From NCBI RefSeq assembly GCF_003096555.1, contig NZ_QEKM01000001.1, positions 3,534,001 to 3,598,000 on the forward strand: a stretch of 64,000 nt of DNA, given 5' to 3'. The first letter of the stretch is position 1. Each line of letters begins with the position of its first letter. Positions 55,605-64,000 of the stretch are shown here, in pieces. The notes beneath the pieces were generated by a model. The model did no database searches. It had not been told where the DNA came from and saw nothing but the letters and a program-made list of their open reading frames with translations. A program made the position numbers and the translations under genes. This DNA comes from Simplicispira sp. 125. Its GTDB lineage: Bacteria > Pseudomonadota > Gammaproteobacteria > Burkholderiales > Burkholderiaceae_C.

Positions 55605-57296
55605 TCACCCGCCCCGTATCTGACTCAACGACCGGCTGGGCGTGATGGCCTCGGGGTCGATCAGGCAGTGCAGCAGCACGGGCAGGCGTGTGGTCTGGGC
55701 TTGTTCCCGTAGGCGTTGCAACGTCGGGGCGAACTCCTCGGTGCGTTCCACGCGTGCGCCGTGGCCGCCAAAGGCTTTGGCATAGGCGGCGAAGTCGGGG
55801 TTTCGTAGCTGTGTTCCGCTCACACGGCGCGGGTACTCGCGCTCCTGGTGCATGCGGATCGTGCCGTACATGCCGTTGTCCAGCAGCACCACGATGAGGG
55901 GCAGCCGGTACTGCACGGCGGTGGCGAATTCCTGGCCGTGCATGAGGAAGTCGCCGTCGCCCGCGAACACCACCACCGTGCGCTCGGGCCACAGGCGCTG
56001 CGCGCCCACGCCGGCCGGCAGGCCGTAGCCCATGCTGCCGCTGGTGGGCGCGAGCTGCGTGCCGAACTGGCGGAACGGCCAGAAGCGGTGCACCCAGGTG
56101 GCGAAGTTGCCCGCGCCGTTGCAGAAGATGGCGTCGGGCGGCAGCACTTCGCGCAAGTGCTGCATCACTGCGCCCATTTGCAGCTCGCCCGGGATGCGGA
56201 TCGGCGCCGGGTCGCTCCACGCCTGGTAGGCGGCATGGGCTTCTTGCACGGCCTGCTGGCGCGCGGCACTGGGCGCTTGCGCCGCCGTGCTGGGCAAGGC
56301 GGCGCAGAAGGCCGTGGGCGTGGCGTTGATGGGCAGCTGTGCCTGGTACACGCGGCCCAGCTCATCGGGGTCGGGGTGCACATGCACCAGCGGGATCTGC
56401 GGTGTGGGGATGTCGAGCAGGGTGTAGCTCTGCGAGGGCACTTCCGACAGGCGCCCGCCGACGAGCAGCAGCAGGTCGGCCGCGCGGATGCGCGCCAGCA
56501 GCGCCGGGTTCACGCCCAGGCCCAGGTCGCCCGCGTAGCAGGGGTGCTGGTGGTCGAACAGCATCTGGCGCCGGAACGAGCAGGCCACGGGCAGGGCGTG
56601 GGCGGCGGCGAAGTCCTGCAAGCGCGCCACGGCCTCGGCGTTCCAGCGGCTGCCGCCGACGATGGCCACCGGGTTGCGTGCCTGACCGAGACGTTCGAGC
56701 AGTTGCGCCATTTGCGCCGGGCTGGGAGCGCTTTCGATGGGCTGGAGCGTGCGTGCGGCAGGCGCCTCGGCGTGCTCGGTCAACATGTCCTCGGGCAAGG
56801 CCACCACCACCGGGCCGGGGCGCCCGCTGCAGGCCACGCTGAAGGCGCGCGCCACGATCTCGGGCAGGCGGCGCGCATCGTCCACCTCGGTGGCCCACTT
56901 GGCCAGCGTGCCGAAGGCGGCGCGGTAGTCCACCTCCTGGAAGGCCTCGCGCCCGCGCGCGCCGCGCTCGATCTGGCCGACGAACAGCACCAGCGGCGTG
57001 GAGTCCTGCATGGCGATGTGCACGCCGGCCGCCGCGTTGGTGGCGCCGGGGCCGCGCGTGACGAAGCACACGCCGGGCCGCCCGGTGAGCTTGCCGTGCG
57101 CCTCGGCCATCATGGCCGCGCCGCCTTCCTGGCGGCACACTGTCAGTTCGATGGGCGCGTCGTGCAATGCGTCGAGCACGGCGAGGTAGCTTTCGCCGGG
57201 CACGCAGAAGATGTGCTGCACGCCGTGCAGCACAAGCTGATCGACCAGGATCTGGCCGCCAGTGCGCAGCAGGGTGGGGGTGGGTTCAGATGACAT
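55605..57296 (-). CDS. Thiamine diphosphate-dependent enzyme (acetolactate synthase-like)
   Basis: 563-residue ThDP enzyme with the usual three domains: PYR domain with catalytic Glu in CRQEGGAAMMAEAHG (E57), central domain, and PP domain with metal/ThDP motif VFAGDGDFLMHGQEF to LDNGMYGT. No acetolactate synthase-specific FAD motifs stand out and there is no small subunit, so a 2-oxoacid decarboxylase or related carboligase is likely. ATG 57296 overlaps the FAD-oxidase 3' end by 11 bases; last gene of the three-gene operon. Confidence 0.9.
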   Translation of the reverse strand: MSSEPTPTLLRTGGQILVDQLVLHGVQHIFCVPGESYLAVLDALHDAPIELTVCRQEGGAAMMAEAHGKLTGRPGVCFVTRGPGATNAAAGVHIAMQDSTPLVLFVGQIERGARGREAFQEVDYRAAFGTLAKWATEVDDARRLPEIVARAFSVACSGRPGPVVVALPEDMLTEHAEAPAARTLQPIESAPSPAQMAQLLERLGQARNPVAIVGGSRWNAEAVARLQDFAAAHALPVACSFRRQMLFDHQHPCYAGDLGLGVNPALLARIRAADLLLLVGGRLSEVPSQSYTLLDIPTPQIPLVHVHPDPDELGRVYQAQLPINATPTAFCAALPSTAAQAPSAARQQAVQEAHAAYQAWSDPAPIRIPGELQMGAVMQHLREVLPPDAIFCNGAGNFATWVHRFWPFRQFGTQLAPTSGSMGYGLPAGVGAQRLWPERTVVVFAGDGDFLMHGQEFATAVQYRLPLIVVLLDNGMYGTIRMHQEREYPRRVSGTQLRNPDFAAYAKAFGGHGARVERTEEFAPTLQRLREQAQTTRLPVLLHCLIDPEAITPSRSLSQIRGG

Positions 57297-58482
57297 TGCG
57301 TTCGAGCAGGGGGCGGTTGTCGAGAAGGCGCTGGAAGGCCAAGGGCTCCAGGTCCAGCGTTTGCCAGCGGCCGGTGAGGATGAGTTCGGCCAGGCCGCGC
57401 CCGACGGCCGGGCACTGCTGCAGGCCGTGGCCCGAGAAGCCGTTGGCGAAGTACAGGTTGTCGCAGGCCGGGTGCAGGCCCAGGATGGCGTTGTGGTCGA
57501 ACGCATTCATCTCGTAGTAGCCCGCCCAACTGCTGTGCAGGCGCAGCGCCTCGAAGGCCGGGATGCGTGCGGCGAGCTGGGGCCACACATGGTTCTCGAA
57601 CGCGGCGTGGTCGGGGTCCAGCGGCGCATCGTCGGGGTCCGCGTCCTCGGCGGGGGCATAGCCGGCGATGAAGCCCGCACCCTCGGGCCGCAGCCAGATG
57701 CCCGAGGGGTCGATGAGCAGTGGGCAGTGCGGTAGCGCCTCGGGGCAGCTGAAATGGAACACCGTGCGCCGCTTGGCAAACACCGGCAGGTCAATGCCCA
57801 GCCACTGCGCCACCGGGCGCGCCCAGGCGCCGGCGGCGTTGACCACGGCGCTGCATTCCAGTCGCTGGCCATCCGCCAGGCGCAGCGCGCTGATGTGCTG
57901 TACGCCGCCGCTGGCCTGCGTGTCCACGCCCACGGCCTCGGCCTGCACATAGCGCACGCCCTGGGCCTGGGCCTTGCGGCGCAGGGCCTGCAGCAGGCTG
58001 TAGCCGTCGAACCAGCCTTCGCTGGACAGGCCCAGCGAGCCGAGCGAGACGCCGTCCGTGGAGAGCCAGGGAAAGCGCGCGCGCAGCGCGTCGGGTGCGA
58101 GCAGGGCCACATCGGCGCCCATGCCACGCTGCACCGCATGGTTGTCGCGCAGCACGGCCTCGCCGACCGGGCTGGCCAGGTACAGGTAGCCCGCTTCGAC
58201 CATGCCGATGTCGGGCTGCTCGCCATGCACTTGCAGGCGCGCGCCGATGTCGCGCAGGAATTCGATGCCGAACTGCGAGATGGCGATGTTGATCGGGCTG
58301 GAGAACTGCTGCCGTATGGAACTGGCCGACAACGCCGACGAAGCCTGGGCATAGCTCGGGTCGCGCTCGACCACCACGACGGGCTGCTCTGGCGCCATCT
58401 GCGTCAGGTAATAGGCAATGGCGCTGCCAATGGCGCCGCCGCCGATGATGGCGATCGGCGCGCCCTGGGGGTTGGCGATCAT
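57286..58482 (-). CDS. FAD-dependent oxidoreductase, D-amino-acid oxidase (DAO) family
   Basis: 398-residue DAO-fold flavoprotein: IAIIGGGAIGSAIAYYLTQM, SALSASSIRQQFSSPIN, VVNAAGAWARPVAQWLG, and C-terminal LYFANGFSGHGLQQCPAVGR. Oxidises an amine or amino acid; no quinone or signal sequence seen. Located 4 nt after the ALDH7 gene. Similar to AmaA-type L-pipecolate oxidases, but sarcosine, proline or other substrates cannot be excluded. Confidence 0.9.
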   Translation of the reverse strand: MIANPQGAPIAIIGGGAIGSAIAYYLTQMAPEQPVVVVERDPSYAQASSALSASSIRQQFSSPINIAISQFGIEFLRDIGARLQVHGEQPDIGMVEAGYLYLASPVGEAVLRDNHAVQRGMGADVALLAPDALRARFPWLSTDGVSLGSLGLSSEGWFDGYSLLQALRRKAQAQGVRYVQAEAVGVDTQASGGVQHISALRLADGQRLECSAVVNAAGAWARPVAQWLGIDLPVFAKRRTVFHFSCPEALPHCPLLIDPSGIWLRPEGAGFIAGYAPAEDADPDDAPLDPDHAAFENHVWPQLAARIPAFEALRLHSSWAGYYEMNAFDHNAILGLHPACDNLYFANGFSGHGLQQCPAVGRGLAELILTGRWQTLDLEPLAFQRLLDNRPLLERNVI

Positions 58483-58486
58483 GGGA

Positions 58487-60019
58487 TCAGACGTCGAAGC
58501 GCACGCCTTGCGCGAGGGGCAGCGCGTCGCTGTAGTTGATGGTGTTGGTCGCGCGGCGCATGTAGCCCTTCCAGGCGTCGGAGCCCGATTCGCGACCGCC
58601 GCCGGTTTCCTTCTCGCCGCCAAAGGCACCGCCGATCTCGGCGCCCGAGGTGCCGATGTTCACGTTGGCAATGCCGCAGTCGCTGCCCGTGCTGGAGAGG
58701 AAGCGCTCGGCCTCGCGCAGGTCGGTGGTGAAGATGGAGGACGAAAGGCCCTGGGGCACACCGTTCTGCAAGGCGATGGCCTCGTCCAGGCTGGCGCAGG
58801 TGAGCACGTAGAGGATGGGCGCGAAGGTCTCGTGCTGCACCACGCCACTTTGCGCGGGCATGCGCACCAGGGCCGGGCGGGCGTACCAGGCGTCCTCGCC
58901 CAGGGTCTGGCATTCGCGCTCGCCGCCCTGCACGGTGCCGCCTTGTTCACGCGCCTGTGCCAGGGCGCTCTGCATCTGCTCGAACGATGCGCGGTCCACC
59001 AGCGGGCCGACGAGCACACCGTCGGCCAAAGGGTCGCCCACGCGCACGCTGGCGTAGATTTTTTCCAGCCGCGCCAGCAGCGGTGCGGCCACGTCGCGGT
59101 GCACGATGAGGCGGCGCAGCGTGGTGCAGCGCTGGCCCGCCGTGCCCACGGCGGCGAAGGTGATGGCGCGTGCGGCCAGTTCCAGGTCGGCGCTGGGCAT
59201 CACCACCATGGCGTTGTTGCCGCCCAGCTCCAGGATGCTGCGGCCAAAGCGCTGCGCCACGTCCACCGCCACGGCGCGGCCCATGCGTGTGCTGCCCGTG
59301 GCGCTGACCACCGGCACGCGCGGTGAGCGCGCCAGCAGCTCGCCCATCTCGCGCCCGCCCAGCAGCAGCGTGGACAGGCCTGCGGGGGCGGCCATGCCCT
59401 GCTCGGCGGCAAATTCGTTCAGCGTCTGCTGCAACAGGTGGTGGCAGGCAATGGCGCACAGCGGGGTTTTTTCGGATGGCTTCCACGCCACGGCGTTGCC
59501 GCACACCAAGGCCAGCGCGGCGTTCCAGGCCCACACGGCCACGGGGAAGTTGAAGGCCGAGATCACGCCGACCACGCCCATCGGGTGCCAGGTTTCCATC
59601 ATGCGGTGGCCCGGGCGCTCGCTGGCGATGGTCAGGCCGTGCAGCTGGCGCGACAAGCCCACGGCGAAGTCGCAGATGTCGATCATCTCCTGCACCTCGC
59701 CCAGCCCTTCGGAGCGCACCTTGCCCGCCTCCAGCGACACCAGCAGGCCCAGCGCCTCCTTGTGCTGGCGCAGCTTCTGGCCGAGGCGCCGCACCAGTTC
59801 GCCGCGCACCGGGGCGGGCGTGGCGCGCCACTGCAGGAAGGCGGCGTGTGCGCCCTCGATGAGCGCCTGGGCCTGTGCGCTGGTGTGGCTGGCGAGCTGG
59901 GCGTACACGGCGCCGTCGCGCGGTGCGCGCACGCTCAGGCCCTGGCCGCGCCAAGGGGTGAGGTCCAGGCCCAGTTGCTGCAGGACGGAGTCGAAAAGAG
60001 GAATCGAAGAGGTGTTCAT
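58487..60019 (-). CDS. Aldehyde dehydrogenase, ALDH7 type (aminoadipate semialdehyde/P6C dehydrogenase-like)
   Basis: 510 residues. Catalytic C298 in GTAGQRCTTLRR and E264 in LELGGNNAMVV. The N-term and PSEKTPLCAIACHHLLQQTL, GRSILELGGNNA match the antiquitin/AmaB family that oxidises Delta1-piperideine-6-carboxylate/2-aminoadipate semialdehyde. ATG 60019 preferred over 60037. First gene of the operon; divergent from the LysR gene. Confidence 0.91.
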   Translation of the reverse strand: MNTSSIPLFDSVLQQLGLDLTPWRGQGLSVRAPRDGAVYAQLASHTSAQAQALIEGAHAAFLQWRATPAPVRGELVRRLGQKLRQHKEALGLLVSLEAGKVRSEGLGEVQEMIDICDFAVGLSRQLHGLTIASERPGHRMMETWHPMGVVGVISAFNFPVAVWAWNAALALVCGNAVAWKPSEKTPLCAIACHHLLQQTLNEFAAEQGMAAPAGLSTLLLGGREMGELLARSPRVPVVSATGSTRMGRAVAVDVAQRFGRSILELGGNNAMVVMPSADLELAARAITFAAVGTAGQRCTTLRRLIVHRDVAAPLLARLEKIYASVRVGDPLADGVLVGPLVDRASFEQMQSALAQAREQGGTVQGGERECQTLGEDAWYARPALVRMPAQSGVVQHETFAPILYVLTCASLDEAIALQNGVPQGLSSSIFTTDLREAERFLSSTGSDCGIANVNIGTSGAEIGGAFGGEKETGGGRESGSDAWKGYMRRATNTINYSDALPLAQGVRFDV

Positions 60020-60185
60020 GAAAGCGTTCTGGAGCAAATCGATGGAGTCCCTTGGGCGGTTCCCGGTCTGTGCCGGGGCCGTGGGCAGCGTGTGCGCACC
60101 ATGTTAAATGCGTTTAGTGCACCCAATAGCTGCTATATCCTCCATGGATGTTGAGTTTTACGAACAACTGTGGAGTGCATTTGCC

Positions 60186-61073
60186 ATGCGGAAAGACATC
60201 CCCAGCCTGGGCGTCCTCCAGGCTTTCGAGGCCTCGGCACGGCTGCAAAGCTTCTCGCGTGCGGCCCAAGAGCTGGCCCTGACGCCCAGCGCCGTGAGCC
60301 GCCATGTCGCCGCGCTGGAAGATCGGCTGGGTGTGACCTTGTTCGTGCGGGCGCGCCAGCGCCTGGCCCTGACGGACACAGGCCGCAGCTATGCGGCGCG
60401 CATACGCCTGCATCTGGAGCAGATCGAGCGCGACACGCAGGAGATCCGGGTGGGGCGTGATGAAGGCTATGTGCTGCACCTGGCGGTGGTGTCCACCTTC
60501 TGCACACAGTGGCTCATTCCGTGCCTGCCGCAGTTTGCGGCGCTGCACCCGCGCATCACGCTCAACCTCTCGGTGCGCTCCGAGGTGTTCGCTTTTGACG
60601 AGAGCGGTTTTGATGCCGCCATTTACTACGGCGACCGGCTCTGGCCCGACACGCAGGGCGGCATGGTGTTGCCCGAGGGACCGTGCGTGCCCGTGTGCAG
60701 CCCGCAGTATGCCGCCGCGCACGCCCTGCACGACGAGCAGGCCTGGCTGCACTGTCCGCACCTCACGCTGGCCTCGCGCGCCCATGCCTGGCGCGGCTGG
60801 TATGCCGAGCGTGGCTGGCACTACACCTTGCACGCCTCGCGCGGGCCACGCTATGAGTTGTTTTCCATGGTGATGGCCGCTGCCGCCGCAGGCCTGGGCG
60901 TAGGCCTGGTGCCGCAGTTGCTGGCGCAGGAGGCGCTGGACAGTGGGCGCCTGGTGCAGGCGCACCCGCAGGTGCTTGCGGGCGAACAGGGCTACTGGTT
61001 CGTGCAGCCGCAGCACCGGCCGGGGCCCGAGGCGCTGCAAATGTTCCGGGACTGGCTGTTGGCGCTGGTTTGA
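60186..61073 (+). CDS. LysR-family regulator divergent from the ALDH7 operon
   Basis: 295 residues from ATG 60186 (MRKDIPSLGVLQAFEASARL). GcvA-like LysR HTH (SFSRAAQELALTPSAVSRHV) and periplasmic-binding-like effector domain. In-frame ATGs at 60108 and 60144 exist, but CTATATCC near 60133 looks like promoter sequence, favouring 60186. Likely activator of the divergent operon. Its stop abuts the lrgB stop (TGATCA 61071-61076). Confidence 0.9.
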   Translation: MRKDIPSLGVLQAFEASARLQSFSRAAQELALTPSAVSRHVAALEDRLGVTLFVRARQRLALTDTGRSYAARIRLHLEQIERDTQEIRVGRDEGYVLHLAVVSTFCTQWLIPCLPQFAALHPRITLNLSVRSEVFAFDESGFDAAIYYGDRLWPDTQGGMVLPEGPCVPVCSPQYAAAHALHDEQAWLHCPHLTLASRAHAWRGWYAERGWHYTLHASRGPRYELFSMVMAAAAAGLGVGLVPQLLAQEALDSGRLVQAHPQVLAGEQGYWFVQPQHRPGPEALQMFRDWLLALV

Positions 61074-61799
61074 TCAGAACCAACCCGCGATCAGCGGGAT
61101 CAGCAGCGACGCTGTCACCACCTGCAGCCCCAGCGCCAGCGCGGCCCAGGCGCCAGCATCCTGGTGCACCTGCAGCGCCCGTGCGGCGCCAATGCCGTGG
61201 GCGGCCGTGCCCATGGCAAAGCCACGGGCCATCCAGCCGGTGGCGTCGGTACCGATGCCCAGCAAGGTAAACAGGGTTTTGCCGCTGAGTGCGCCAACCA
61301 GCCCCGTCACTACGGCAAAAACTGCGGCCAGGGATGCATTGCCGCCAATCTTGTCGGCAATGCCCATGGCCACGGGGGCCGTGACCGACTTGGGCGCCAG
61401 CGACAGCACGATTTCCAGGGGCAGTCCCAGTGCCCAGGCCAGGCCCACGGCGCTGCCTGCCGCGGCCGCGCCGCCGACCACCGAGGCCAGCGTAAAGCGC
61501 CCCCAGCGTACGCGCAGTTCGGCGCGCCGCTCCCACAGCGGCCAGGCCAGCGCCACCACGGCGGGCCCGAGCAGGAAGTGGATGAACTGTGCCCCGGCAA
61601 AGTAGGTGGGGTAGGCCGTGCCCGTGGCCAGCAAACCCAGGCCCAGCACCACCATGGACCACAGCACTGGGTTGGCCCAGGGCGCCTGCCCCATGCGCGT
61701 GTAAAACGCCAATGCCAGCACATAGACCACCAGCGTGGCGTTGAGCCCGAACAGCGGTGTGGACGAGAGGTACACCCACAGTTGCACGAAGTCCGTCAT
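61074..61799 (-). CDS. lrgB: LrgB/CidB-family membrane protein
   Basis: 241-residue hydrophobic protein with about seven membrane segments and the family core KSVTAPVAMGIADKIGGNAS and GFAMGTAAHGIGAARALQV. LrgB with LrgA is the bacterial counterpart of the plant plastidic glycolate/glycerate translocator PLGG1, in which both parts are fused; Bacillus PftAB (LrgAB) moves pyruvate. Start 61799 overlaps lrgA stop (ATGA). Confidence 0.92.
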   Translation of the reverse strand: MTDFVQLWVYLSSTPLFGLNATLVVYVLALAFYTRMGQAPWANPVLWSMVVLGLGLLATGTAYPTYFAGAQFIHFLLGPAVVALAWPLWERRAELRVRWGRFTLASVVGGAAAAGSAVGLAWALGLPLEIVLSLAPKSVTAPVAMGIADKIGGNASLAAVFAVVTGLVGALSGKTLFTLLGIGTDATGWMARGFAMGTAAHGIGAARALQVHQDAGAWAALALGLQVVTASLLIPLIAGWF

Positions 61800-62158
61800 T
61801 CCCTGTCTCCCGATGGTGGAGCCTGGCGCATCAGCTGTCGTAGCACCAGCGCCGTAACAGCCAGGCCGATCCACGTGGACACCACGATCACCACCAGCAG
61901 CCGCCACCCGTGCTCAGCCAGCAGCCCGAGCTGGGAAATGACGCCCACGCCCACGGGTACAAACAGCAGTGACAGGTGGGCCAGTAAAAAGCGGGCCACG
62001 GTTTGCACACGCTGCTGCACCGCAGGCCAGCGCAGTGCGCCCAGCAGCAGCACCATGCCAATCACCGGGCCGGGGTAGGGCAGGTGCAGCAGCCGCGACA
62101 GAGCCTCGCCCACCGACTGCAGCGTGAGCAGGATGGCCAGCCCCTGGAGCACTTGCAT
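61796..62158 (-). CDS. lrgA: LrgA/CidA-family membrane protein
   Basis: 120 residues, four membrane segments: LAILLTLQSVGEALSRLLHL, PGPVIGMVLLLGAL, FLLAHLSLLFVPVGVGVI and LLVVIVVSTWIGLAVTALVL. Holin-like family, now thought to be a transport partner of LrgB. ATG 62158 lies 9 bases after glcD; overlaps lrgB by ATGA. Confidence 0.93.
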   Translation of the reverse strand: MQVLQGLAILLTLQSVGEALSRLLHLPYPGPVIGMVLLLGALRWPAVQQRVQTVARFLLAHLSLLFVPVGVGVISQLGLLAEHGWRLLVVIVVSTWIGLAVTALVLRQLMRQAPPSGDRE

Positions 62159-62167
62159 GCGCGGGGC

Positions 62168-63670
62168 TTAAAAGCGGGGCAGGTCGGGGTGGCTGATCTG
62201 CCCGCCGCGCACCAGCATCTTGCCGTACTCGGCGCAGCGGTTCAGCGTGGGAATGACCTTGCCCGGGTTGAGCAAGCCCTGCGGATCGAAGGCGTGCTTG
62301 ACGCTGGACATCTGTGCCAGTTCCTCGGCGGTGAACTGCACGCACATGGTGCCCAGCTTTTCCACGCCCACACCGTGCTCGCCCGTGATGGTGCCGCCCA
62401 TGGCCACACTGGTTTCCATGATCTCGGCGCCGAACTGCTCACAGCGGTGCAGCTGGTCGGCGTCGTTGGCATCGAACAGGATCAGCGGGTGCAGGTTGCC
62501 ATCACCCGCATGGAACACGTTGGCGCAGCGCAGGCCGTACTTCTTCTCCATGTCCTGGATGGCCAGCAGGATGTCGGCCAGGCGTCGGCGTGGAATGGTA
62601 GAGTCCATGCACATGTAGTCGGGGCTGATGCGGCCGCTGGCGGGGAAGGCGTTTTTGCGCCCGCTCCAAAAACGCAGGCGCTCGGCTTCGCTGGTGCTCA
62701 CGGTCAGCGCGGTGGCGCCTGCAGCCTGCAGCACCGCGCTCATGCGTCCGATTTCCTCCTCCACCTCTTCGGGTGTGCCGTCGCTCTCACACAACAGTAT
62801 GGCCTCGGCCGTGAGGTCGTAGCCCGCATGCACAAAGTCTTCCACGGCGGCGGTCATGGGCTTGTCCATCATCTCCAGGCCCGCCGGGATGATGCCGGCG
62901 GCGATCACTGCTGCCACGGCGTCACCGGCTTTGCGCACATCATCGAAGCTGGCCATGATGCAACGCGCAAGCAGGGGCTTTGGAACCAGCTTGACGGTCA
63001 CTTCGGTGGTGACGGCCAGCATGCCCTCGCTGCCGATCACGGCGGCCAGCAGGTCGTAGCCGGGTGCGTCGAGCGCCTCGCTGCCAAAGGTGACTGCCTC
63101 GCCCTCGGCAGTGAAGCCGCGCACCTGCAGCACGTTGTGCACCGTCAGGCCGTATTTCAGGCAGTGCACGCCGCCCGAGTTCTCGGCCACGTTGCCGCCG
63201 ATGGTGCAGGCGATCTGGCTGCTGGGGTCGGGCGCGTAGTACAGGCCATAGGGCGCGGCTGCTTCGCTGATGGCCAGGTTGCGCACGCCGCACTGCACGC
63301 GGGCGGTGCGGCTGACGGGGTCTAACGACAAGATCTGGTTGAATTTGGCGAGTGAAAGCGTCACGCCCATCGCGTGGGGCAGGGCGCCTCCCGACAGGCC
63401 GGTGCCGGCGCCGCGCGCCACCACGGGCACCCCCAGGCGGTGGCAGGCCTGCAGCACCGCCTGTACCTGCGCCGTGGTTTCGGGCAGGCAAACGACCAGC
63501 GGACGCTGGCGGTAGGCGGTCAGGCCGTCGCACTCGTAGGGCGTGGTGTCTTCGGAATGCCACAGCAGTGCGTGCGCGGGTAGGTGCTGCAGCAGGGCTT
63601 GCACCACCGCGGTCTGGCGCGCGGCGCGCTCGGAGGGTGTTGCCGTGATTGCGGGGCTGGCAGAGTTCAT
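62168..63670 (-). CDS. glcD: FAD-linked 2-hydroxyacid oxidase (glycolate oxidase GlcD-like)
   Basis: 500-residue VAO-type flavoprotein. FAD-binding PCMH domain with VPVVARGAGTGLSGGALPHA and IGGNVAENSGGVHCLKYGLT; C-terminal cap with FHAGDGNLHPLILFDAND and GTITGEHGVGVEKLG. Similar enzymes oxidise glycolate, D-lactate or D-2-hydroxyglutarate. glcE and glcF are not adjacent; lrgA-lrgB follow instead. ATG 63670 gives MNSASPAITA; a GTG 3 codons upstream is possible. Ribosome site is poor. Confidence 0.9.
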   Translation of the reverse strand: MNSASPAITATPSERAARQTAVVQALLQHLPAHALLWHSEDTTPYECDGLTAYRQRPLVVCLPETTAQVQAVLQACHRLGVPVVARGAGTGLSGGALPHAMGVTLSLAKFNQILSLDPVSRTARVQCGVRNLAISEAAAPYGLYYAPDPSSQIACTIGGNVAENSGGVHCLKYGLTVHNVLQVRGFTAEGEAVTFGSEALDAPGYDLLAAVIGSEGMLAVTTEVTVKLVPKPLLARCIMASFDDVRKAGDAVAAVIAAGIIPAGLEMMDKPMTAAVEDFVHAGYDLTAEAILLCESDGTPEEVEEEIGRMSAVLQAAGATALTVSTSEAERLRFWSGRKNAFPASGRISPDYMCMDSTIPRRRLADILLAIQDMEKKYGLRCANVFHAGDGNLHPLILFDANDADQLHRCEQFGAEIMETSVAMGGTITGEHGVGVEKLGTMCVQFTAEELAQMSSVKHAFDPQGLLNPGKVIPTLNRCAEYGKMLVRGGQISHPDLPRF

Positions 63671-63754: not shown

Positions 63755-64000
63755 CTAGGCTTGCGCCGCAAACTCCGGCTGACCGCGCAGGCGCTCGTAC
63801 AGCGGGGCAAAGTCAGCAGCCGTCATATCGAACAGTTGCTGGAAGCTGTCGATGACAAAGTAGGTCTGCTGGTAGGTGTCGATCTTGTAGCGCGTGCGCA
63901 TGGTGCGCTCCAGTTGCAGTGGCAGGCGCTGCGGTTCCGGGCTTTGTACGGCGTACGGCAGCTCGCCCGAGGAGCTCAGAATACCGGCCCCGTAGGCCCG
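63755..64000 (-). CDS. phhA: Phenylalanine 4-monooxygenase (3' end)
   Basis: C-terminal 81 codons in frame from the window edge, stop TAG at 63755-63757. RAYGAGILSSSGELPYAV and MRTRYKIDTYQQTYFVIDSF match the C-terminal end of bacterial phenylalanine hydroxylase (PhhA), which converts Phe to Tyr with pterin and Fe. Most of the catalytic domain lies outside the window. Confidence 0.9.
   Translation of the reverse strand, partial: RAYGAGILSSSGELPYAVQSPEPQRLPLQLERTMRTRYKIDTYQQTYFVIDSFQQLFDMTAADFAPLYERLRGQPEFAAQA

Follow-up and report, generated by a model that had tools for sequence, protein, structure and literature searches.

The window analysed here is a stretch of 64,000 nucleotides of the Simplicispira sp. 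125 genome (contig NZ_QEKM01000001.1, positions 3,534,001 to 3,598,000), a genome of 3.97 Mb in one contig. Near its right end lie three genes, glcD, lrgA and lrgB, whose products appear to be a glycolate oxidase subunit and the two subunits of a membrane protein of the LrgA/LrgB family (Table 1). A first-pass annotation of this DNA had described the three as co-directional and tightly packed, with a short spacer behind glcD and an ATGA overlap between the other two, and the sequence bears this out, with all three reading frames intact. The lrgA product matches Pfam LrgA (PF03788) with 96.9 bits (cut-off 28) and the lrgB product matches Pfam LrgB (PF04172) with 224.9 bits (cut-off 25); with both scores above the curated cut-offs and the genes paired, the pair clearly belongs to the LrgA/LrgB (CidA/CidB) family. 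The window lrgB encodes the sole LrgB found in a search of the host genome, and an AlphaFold2 model of this protein has a predicted local distance difference test score (pLDDT) of 91.5. A scan of named genome contigs with LrgB gave 336 relatives, and among the best 80 of these the nearest named protein is that of a Giesbergeria bin (95%); others are found in Comamonadaceae, for instance in Comamonas granuli (89%) and in Simplicispira hankyongi (87%), and the host probably belongs to the same family, which comprises bacteria of water and soil.

Table 1. Features of the glcD-lrgA-lrgB operon in the window and of the distant glcE-glcF locus in the same genome
Feature	Position	Strand	Description
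glcD	62168..63670	minus	500 residues; GlcD-type glycolate oxidase subunit; intact
glcD-lrgA spacer	62159..62167	minus	9 nucleotides; read from sequence
lrgA	61796..62158	minus	120 residues; small membrane partner subunit; intact
lrgA stop/lrgB start	61796..61799	minus	ATGA overlap of 4 nucleotides; read from sequence
lrgB	61074..61799	minus	241 residues; transporter-type membrane subunit; intact
glcE, DUF1275 membrane protein gene, glcF	L013 (host genome 3340000-3356000), 6080-9248		DUF1275 gene lies between glcE and glcF

The window oxidase contains the flavin adenine dinucleotide (FAD)-binding domain FAD_binding_4 (PF01565) and FAD-oxidase_C (PF02913), and its two top NCBIfam models are both GlcD (PRK11230, 755 bits; TIGR00387, 506 bits); the top solved relative is 9qgz, an entry named 'Glycolate oxidase' (E-value 7.7e-85). 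It is the single GlcD-type protein of the host genome at E<=1e-80, and five further FAD-oxidase_C rows fall in four other open frames. The first-pass annotation was correct that no glcE or glcF follows the operon, and none lies on its other side either, but both genes are present elsewhere in the same genome, at 3.348 Mb and about 250 kb from the window operon. Their products reach the NCBIfam cut-offs (GlcE 494 bits against 284; GlcF 683 bits against 333), and the own-genome search found no GlcD-type match near them. Because glcE and glcF lack a neighbouring glcD and the window encodes the sole GlcD-type protein, the operon, judged from sequence, most likely encodes the GlcD subunit of a glycolate oxidase whose genes are split between two loci. 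The assignment of the window oxidase as GlcD is well supported, and the protein would presumably work together with the distant GlcE and GlcF. The stand-alone 2-hydroxyacid oxidase of unspecified substrate that had been proposed for this gene therefore gives way to a GlcD-like subunit with partners encoded elsewhere, and with the oxidase placed as the GlcD of glycolate oxidase the expected substrate narrows to glycolate. A gene for malate synthase G is also present in the host (1186 bits against a cut-off of 989), and none of its proteins reaches the cut-off for glyoxylate carboligase (best score 337 bits against 711).

Separation of glcD from glcE is common among relatives of the host. Our family draw took one genome from each of 90 genera of the host's family, and GlcE was found in 84 of them, GlcD in 86, LrgB in 42 and the permease family Lactate_perm (PF02652) in 37. 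Both GlcD and GlcE are encoded in 84 genera, and the two genes lie within 3 kb of each other in 39 of these and apart in 45, a few of the latter perhaps reflecting contig breaks, and in this family the split arrangement is thus about as common as the joined one. As at the host glcE-glcF locus, a DUF1275-type gene stands between glcE and glcF in three of the genomes (G056, G067 and G080; G and L numbers are our handles for genomes and loci), and a methyltransferase gene is found behind glcE in three others (G009, G011 and G059).

The association of lrgAB with glycolate oxidase genes extends well beyond the window. The best 80 of the 336 named loci, a set selected for resemblance to the query and with members that are not independent, include 69 in which glcD precedes lrgAB in the same orientation; in ten no glcD was found, and one locus is cut off. 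Together with 11 loci from the family draw and the window itself these make 81 glcD-lrgAB loci, with a median glcD-lrgA gap of 12 nucleotides (<=60 in 66 of the 81, >1 kb in three) and an estimated lrgA/lrgB overlap in 64. Of the 42 LrgB-bearing genera in the family draw, 18 have the gene next to glcD or glcE. Twelve of these 18 have the order glcD-lrgAB, in every case with glcD and glcE apart, and in the other six (G009, G021, G046, G061, G065 and G073) lrgAB is placed between glcE and glcF; in G021 glcD occupies a separate place (L136), and in G073 glcD and glcE are both incomplete, each truncated at one end of the same contig. By a rough estimate that ignores shared descent, 18 of the approximately 49 LrgB loci of the family draw stand beside glcD or glcE where about 0.2 would be expected, so the linkage far exceeds what chance would give. 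Two LrgB rows of G003 at ~1.002 Mb and the second LrgB of G063 are left out as loci, the linkage classification leaves out L136 and L169 as well as L137 and L200 (the last two hold no LrgB), and L037 is truncated by its contig end. The first-pass proposal that the pair carries a substrate or product of the oxidase called for such linkage in related genomes, and it survived this check, with the proviso that the linkage is frequent in the family and not universal. The conserved glcD-lrgAB operon is real, and is known so far from the host's family alone; a search of the open-access literature, mostly by title, turned up no paper on it.

The LrgB sequences themselves follow the linkage. A quick tree of 145 LrgB rows (L173 and L179 left out, long branches flagged) was assessed by the Shimodaira-Hasegawa-like approximate likelihood-ratio test (SH-aLRT) alone, and in it 107 rows including the window form a clade with a support of 100. 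This clade holds all 81 glcD-lrgAB rows, all five glcDE-lrgAB rows, one glcE-lrgAB row, the cut-off row and 19 others without linkage; among the 38 remaining rows a single one is linked, that of G171, a member of the host's family with the order glcE-glcF-lrgAB and glcD at a separate place. The difference between the two sets in their content of linked rows has a Fisher p of ~1e-18, uncorrected for shared descent or row choice. Since the G171 LrgB falls outside the clade, lrgAB would have joined the glc genes independently there. When 29 of the 107 clade rows were compared with 30 of the 38 others, 32 positions besides the first residue differed between the two groups (V81, R91, T198, A205 and Q226, for example), and these are initial candidates for residues that determine specificity.

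In E. coli the glycolate oxidase encoded by glcDEF is accompanied by the GlcA permease. The host resembles this system in having genes for GlcD, GlcE and GlcF together with malate synthase G, and departs from it in that glcD is apart from glcEF and carries lrgAB, in that the regulator gene beside glcD in its relatives is of the LysR type, and in that a profile search of the genome gave no match to PF02652, the GlcA/LctP-type permease family (other carrier types were not searched for). Seven genera have an intact PF02652 gene no more than ~1.3 kb upstream of glcD (G007, G009, G023, G037, G041, G056 and G062), and of the six fetched as loci, four have the order lysR-glcA-glcD-glcE-glcF, G056 differs by its DUF1275 gene before glcF and G009 also has lrgAB. 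The glcA-type gene beside glcD in G073 (L137 1577-3205) is broken into separate pieces with in-frame stops, and lrgA and lrgB of that genome read through; this looks like a permease lost after the arrival of lrgAB, in a single case.

Members of the LrgA/LrgB family that have been studied are associated with small carboxylates. The E. coli proteins YohJ and YohK, which we take to be the members behind the NCBIfam models PRK01821 and PRK10711, belong to the same family as the window pair, although the window LrgB scores 146 bits against a PRK10711 cut-off of 267. YohJK is described as a putative 3-hydroxypropionate transporter, and in contrast to the window operon no oxidase partner is mentioned in the part of that report available to us (PMC7642389). 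The plant protein PLGG1, cited as a carrier of glycolate and glycerate (PMC8805020, PMC5626966), has the same LrgA and LrgB domains as the window pair and an overlapping predicted substrate, although in PLGG1 they form a single fused polypeptide and in the window they are encoded by two genes. The Bacillus subtilis PftAB and Staphylococcus aureus LrgAB systems are, like that of the window, composed of separate LrgA and LrgB subunits, but the window operon differs in having a glycolate oxidase subunit as partner. Transport of pyruvate by PftAB is described as facilitated and driven by the gradient, and pftAB expression as induced by pyruvate by way of LytST (PMC5626966), and S. aureus LrgAB is reported to import pyruvate, with neither subunit complementing alone, while CidA and LrgA of S. 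aureus also showed holin activity in a lysis assay (PMC8805020, PMC12632267). PF04172 is also listed among ranked genes that separate Calvin-cycle-positive from Calvin-cycle-negative genomes, its copy number being lower in the former group (0.32 against 0.48), and the accessible part of that study draws no link from it to glycolate oxidase (PMC7895386).

Because lrgAB so often shares an operon with a glycolate oxidase subunit, LrgAB is probably the entry route for glycolate. Taken as a whole, the best explanation of the locus, and one that we consider reasonably probable, is that LrgAB admits glycolate for the split GlcDEF oxidase; from genome comparison, the strong prediction is that LrgAB is the leading candidate glycolate carrier of the host's family. 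Transport by LrgAB, glycolate as its main substrate and an inward flow would each be part of this reading. The operon would supply the catalytic FAD subunit of the oxidase and a two-subunit carrier. LrgAB would admit glycolate, a waste product of algae for example, across the inner membrane by facilitated diffusion; GlcD, GlcE and GlcF would convert it to glyoxylate and hand the electrons to the respiratory chain, and the glyoxylate would become malate by the action of malate synthase G. Irreversible oxidation would hold internal glycolate low and so set the inward direction; by analogy with the studied relatives, LrgAB should allow glycolate to equilibrate while GlcDEF act as the sink. A broader proposal, which we put forward tentatively as a possibility, is that in the Comamonadaceae LrgAB is a dedicated glycolate carrier that was brought into the glycolate oxidase operon at least twice, from different LrgAB lineages, and took the place of GlcA in some genera. 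If true, this would make LrgAB a bacterial equivalent of PLGG1, the carrier that serves photorespiration in plastids, and add bacterial evidence for CidB/LrgB as a carboxylate transporter family, and the 'murein hydrolase effector' names in this LrgB clade would mask a glycolate uptake system; the glcD-lrgAB linkage in any case supplies a carrier candidate that is directly testable. We note that glcD has been described as a biomarker of bacteria that consume algal glycolate, and that the glcD transcripts recruited from blooms in lakes include some of Comamonadaceae (PMC8457463); among the parts of the open-access literature searched, none covered the route by which bloom Comamonadaceae take up glycolate.

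Several observations weigh against assigning LrgAB to glycolate. Within the host's family 24 of the 42 LrgB-bearing genera lack linkage to glcD or glcE, and much of the linkage that exists is shared descent inside one LrgB clade. A class-wide draw of 206 genomes found LrgB in 28, three of them from the host's family, and in none of the 25 from other families is LrgB encoded beside glcD or glcE (15 were fetched as loci and the other ten judged from coordinates alone), with glcE present in 13 of the 25; one of the family members, G268, has three LrgB loci, none of which adjoins glcD or glcE. Linked lrgAB and the permease do not significantly avoid each other, PF02652 being present in six of 18 linked genomes as against 29 of 68 other genomes with GlcD (Fisher p 0.59), or in five of 18 if the broken G073 copy is discounted (p 0.29). 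The window oxidase falls short of the cut-offs of both GlcD models (755 bits against 897 for PRK11230, 506 against 567.9 for TIGR00387). Finally, nine loci have purU and lrgAB without glcD, and one such genome, G063, has neither a GlcD-type match at E<=1e-80 nor a GlcE match at E<=1e-60.

The last of these points bears on the possibility that LrgAB is a broad monocarboxylate facilitator (for pyruvate, lactate, formate and glycolate), with an adjacency to glcD that is partly an inherited gene order and a main substrate that may be another acid, such as the formate released by PurU; we regard this as unlikely, though not negligible. The commonest order is in fact purU-lysR-glcD-lrgA-lrgB, with purU, for formyltetrahydrofolate deformylase, and a GcvA-like LysR gene preceding glcD in L018 and 36 more loci (37 in total); the L018 purU reaches its NCBIfam cut-offs, and neither purU nor a matching LysR gene is present in the stretch fetched around the window operon. 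Another kind of partner is seen in G048 (L160 2094-8192), where lrgAB follows not glcD but a gene for a 927-residue FAD/iron-sulphur oxidase and an LctP-type permease gene; the oxidase is of the GlcD/YdiJ kind, under the cut-offs of both models, and presumably of the D-lactate type. By eye, the same locus also holds a gene resembling that of a universal stress protein. A broad specificity would also fit the differing substrates described for known relatives, namely pyruvate, glycolate/glycerate and 3-hydroxypropionate. However, no purU is seen in the stretches fetched for the six loci in which lrgAB is flanked by glcE and glcF, and in G171 a second LrgAB lineage joined glcE-glcF, and therefore the partner shared across these rearrangements is the glycolate operon. 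The distribution of the LysR gene points in a similar direction: in addition to the purU loci, the same type precedes glcA-glcD-glcE-glcF in five loci (one with a DUF1275 gene before glcF) and glcA-glcD-glcE-methyltransferase-lrgAB-glcF in one, and it accompanies purU and lrgAB without glcD in L168, so that the GcvA-like LysR mostly accompanies glcD.

It is rather improbable that LrgAB serves as an overflow valve, letting out surplus glycolate, glyoxylate or an acid further along the pathway, and does not import the substrate. Facilitators run both ways, as described for PftAB, which carries pyruvate whichever way its gradient runs (PMC5626966), and YohJK of E. coli, the putative 3-hydroxypropionate transporter, is reported to give tolerance (PMC7642389). 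An overflow valve would nevertheless need some other importer, since the window genome has no PF02652 permease, the carrier type that was searched for. The position of glcE and glcF outside the operon, with the bit scores below both model cut-offs, could suggest that the window GlcD instead acts without them on another 2-hydroxyacid, such as D-lactate or D-2-hydroxyglutarate, served by LrgAB. This we consider very unlikely, given that the host glcE and glcF have no other GlcD-type candidate at the threshold used and that the window GlcD is 78-84% identical to GlcD in the fetched glcDEF loci, although the value is 68-69% for G016 and G053, where glcD adjoins glcE too. A holin/antiholin-like pair for control of lysis with an incidental neighbour, as the family annotation (TIGR00659, 'autolysis modulator', for which the window LrgB is under the cut-off), the 'putative effector of murein hydrolase' among the source names of related LrgB proteins and the reported function of S. 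aureus CidA/LrgA as holins (PMC8805020) would have it, is the most improbable of all in view of the short glcD spacing that has been kept, the presence of lrgAB inside the glycolate operon in several genera, the LysR beside glcD in relatives, which scores best as GcvA (231 bits in L018, under the cut-off of 288), and the LysR downstream in the window, which is likewise closer to GcvA (239.5 bits, under the cut-off) than to CidR (48.6 bits).

Upstream of glcD (window 63755-64000, continued in L014 3756-5923) are genes that by eye resemble those for phenylalanine 4-hydroxylase and 4-hydroxyphenylpyruvate dioxygenase, and a phenylalanine hydroxylase query gave no match listed in the loci of the 80 named relatives. 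In one genome of another family (G100, L201 3148-6997) lrgAB and an oppositely oriented gene are ~1.5 kb apart, and the product of the latter is 58% identical to an FAD oxidase paralogue of the host, presumably of the D-lactate/2-hydroxyglutarate type. Downstream of the operon, window 55605-61073 contains genes that look by eye like those of a thiamine-diphosphate enzyme and an FAD oxidoreductase, together with an aldehyde dehydrogenase gene and the LysR gene mentioned above. The best named model for the aldehyde dehydrogenase is L-piperidine-6-carboxylate dehydrogenase (802.6 bits, cut-off 730), and its gene and the adjoining LysR gene recur as a pair near lrgAB in five close relatives.

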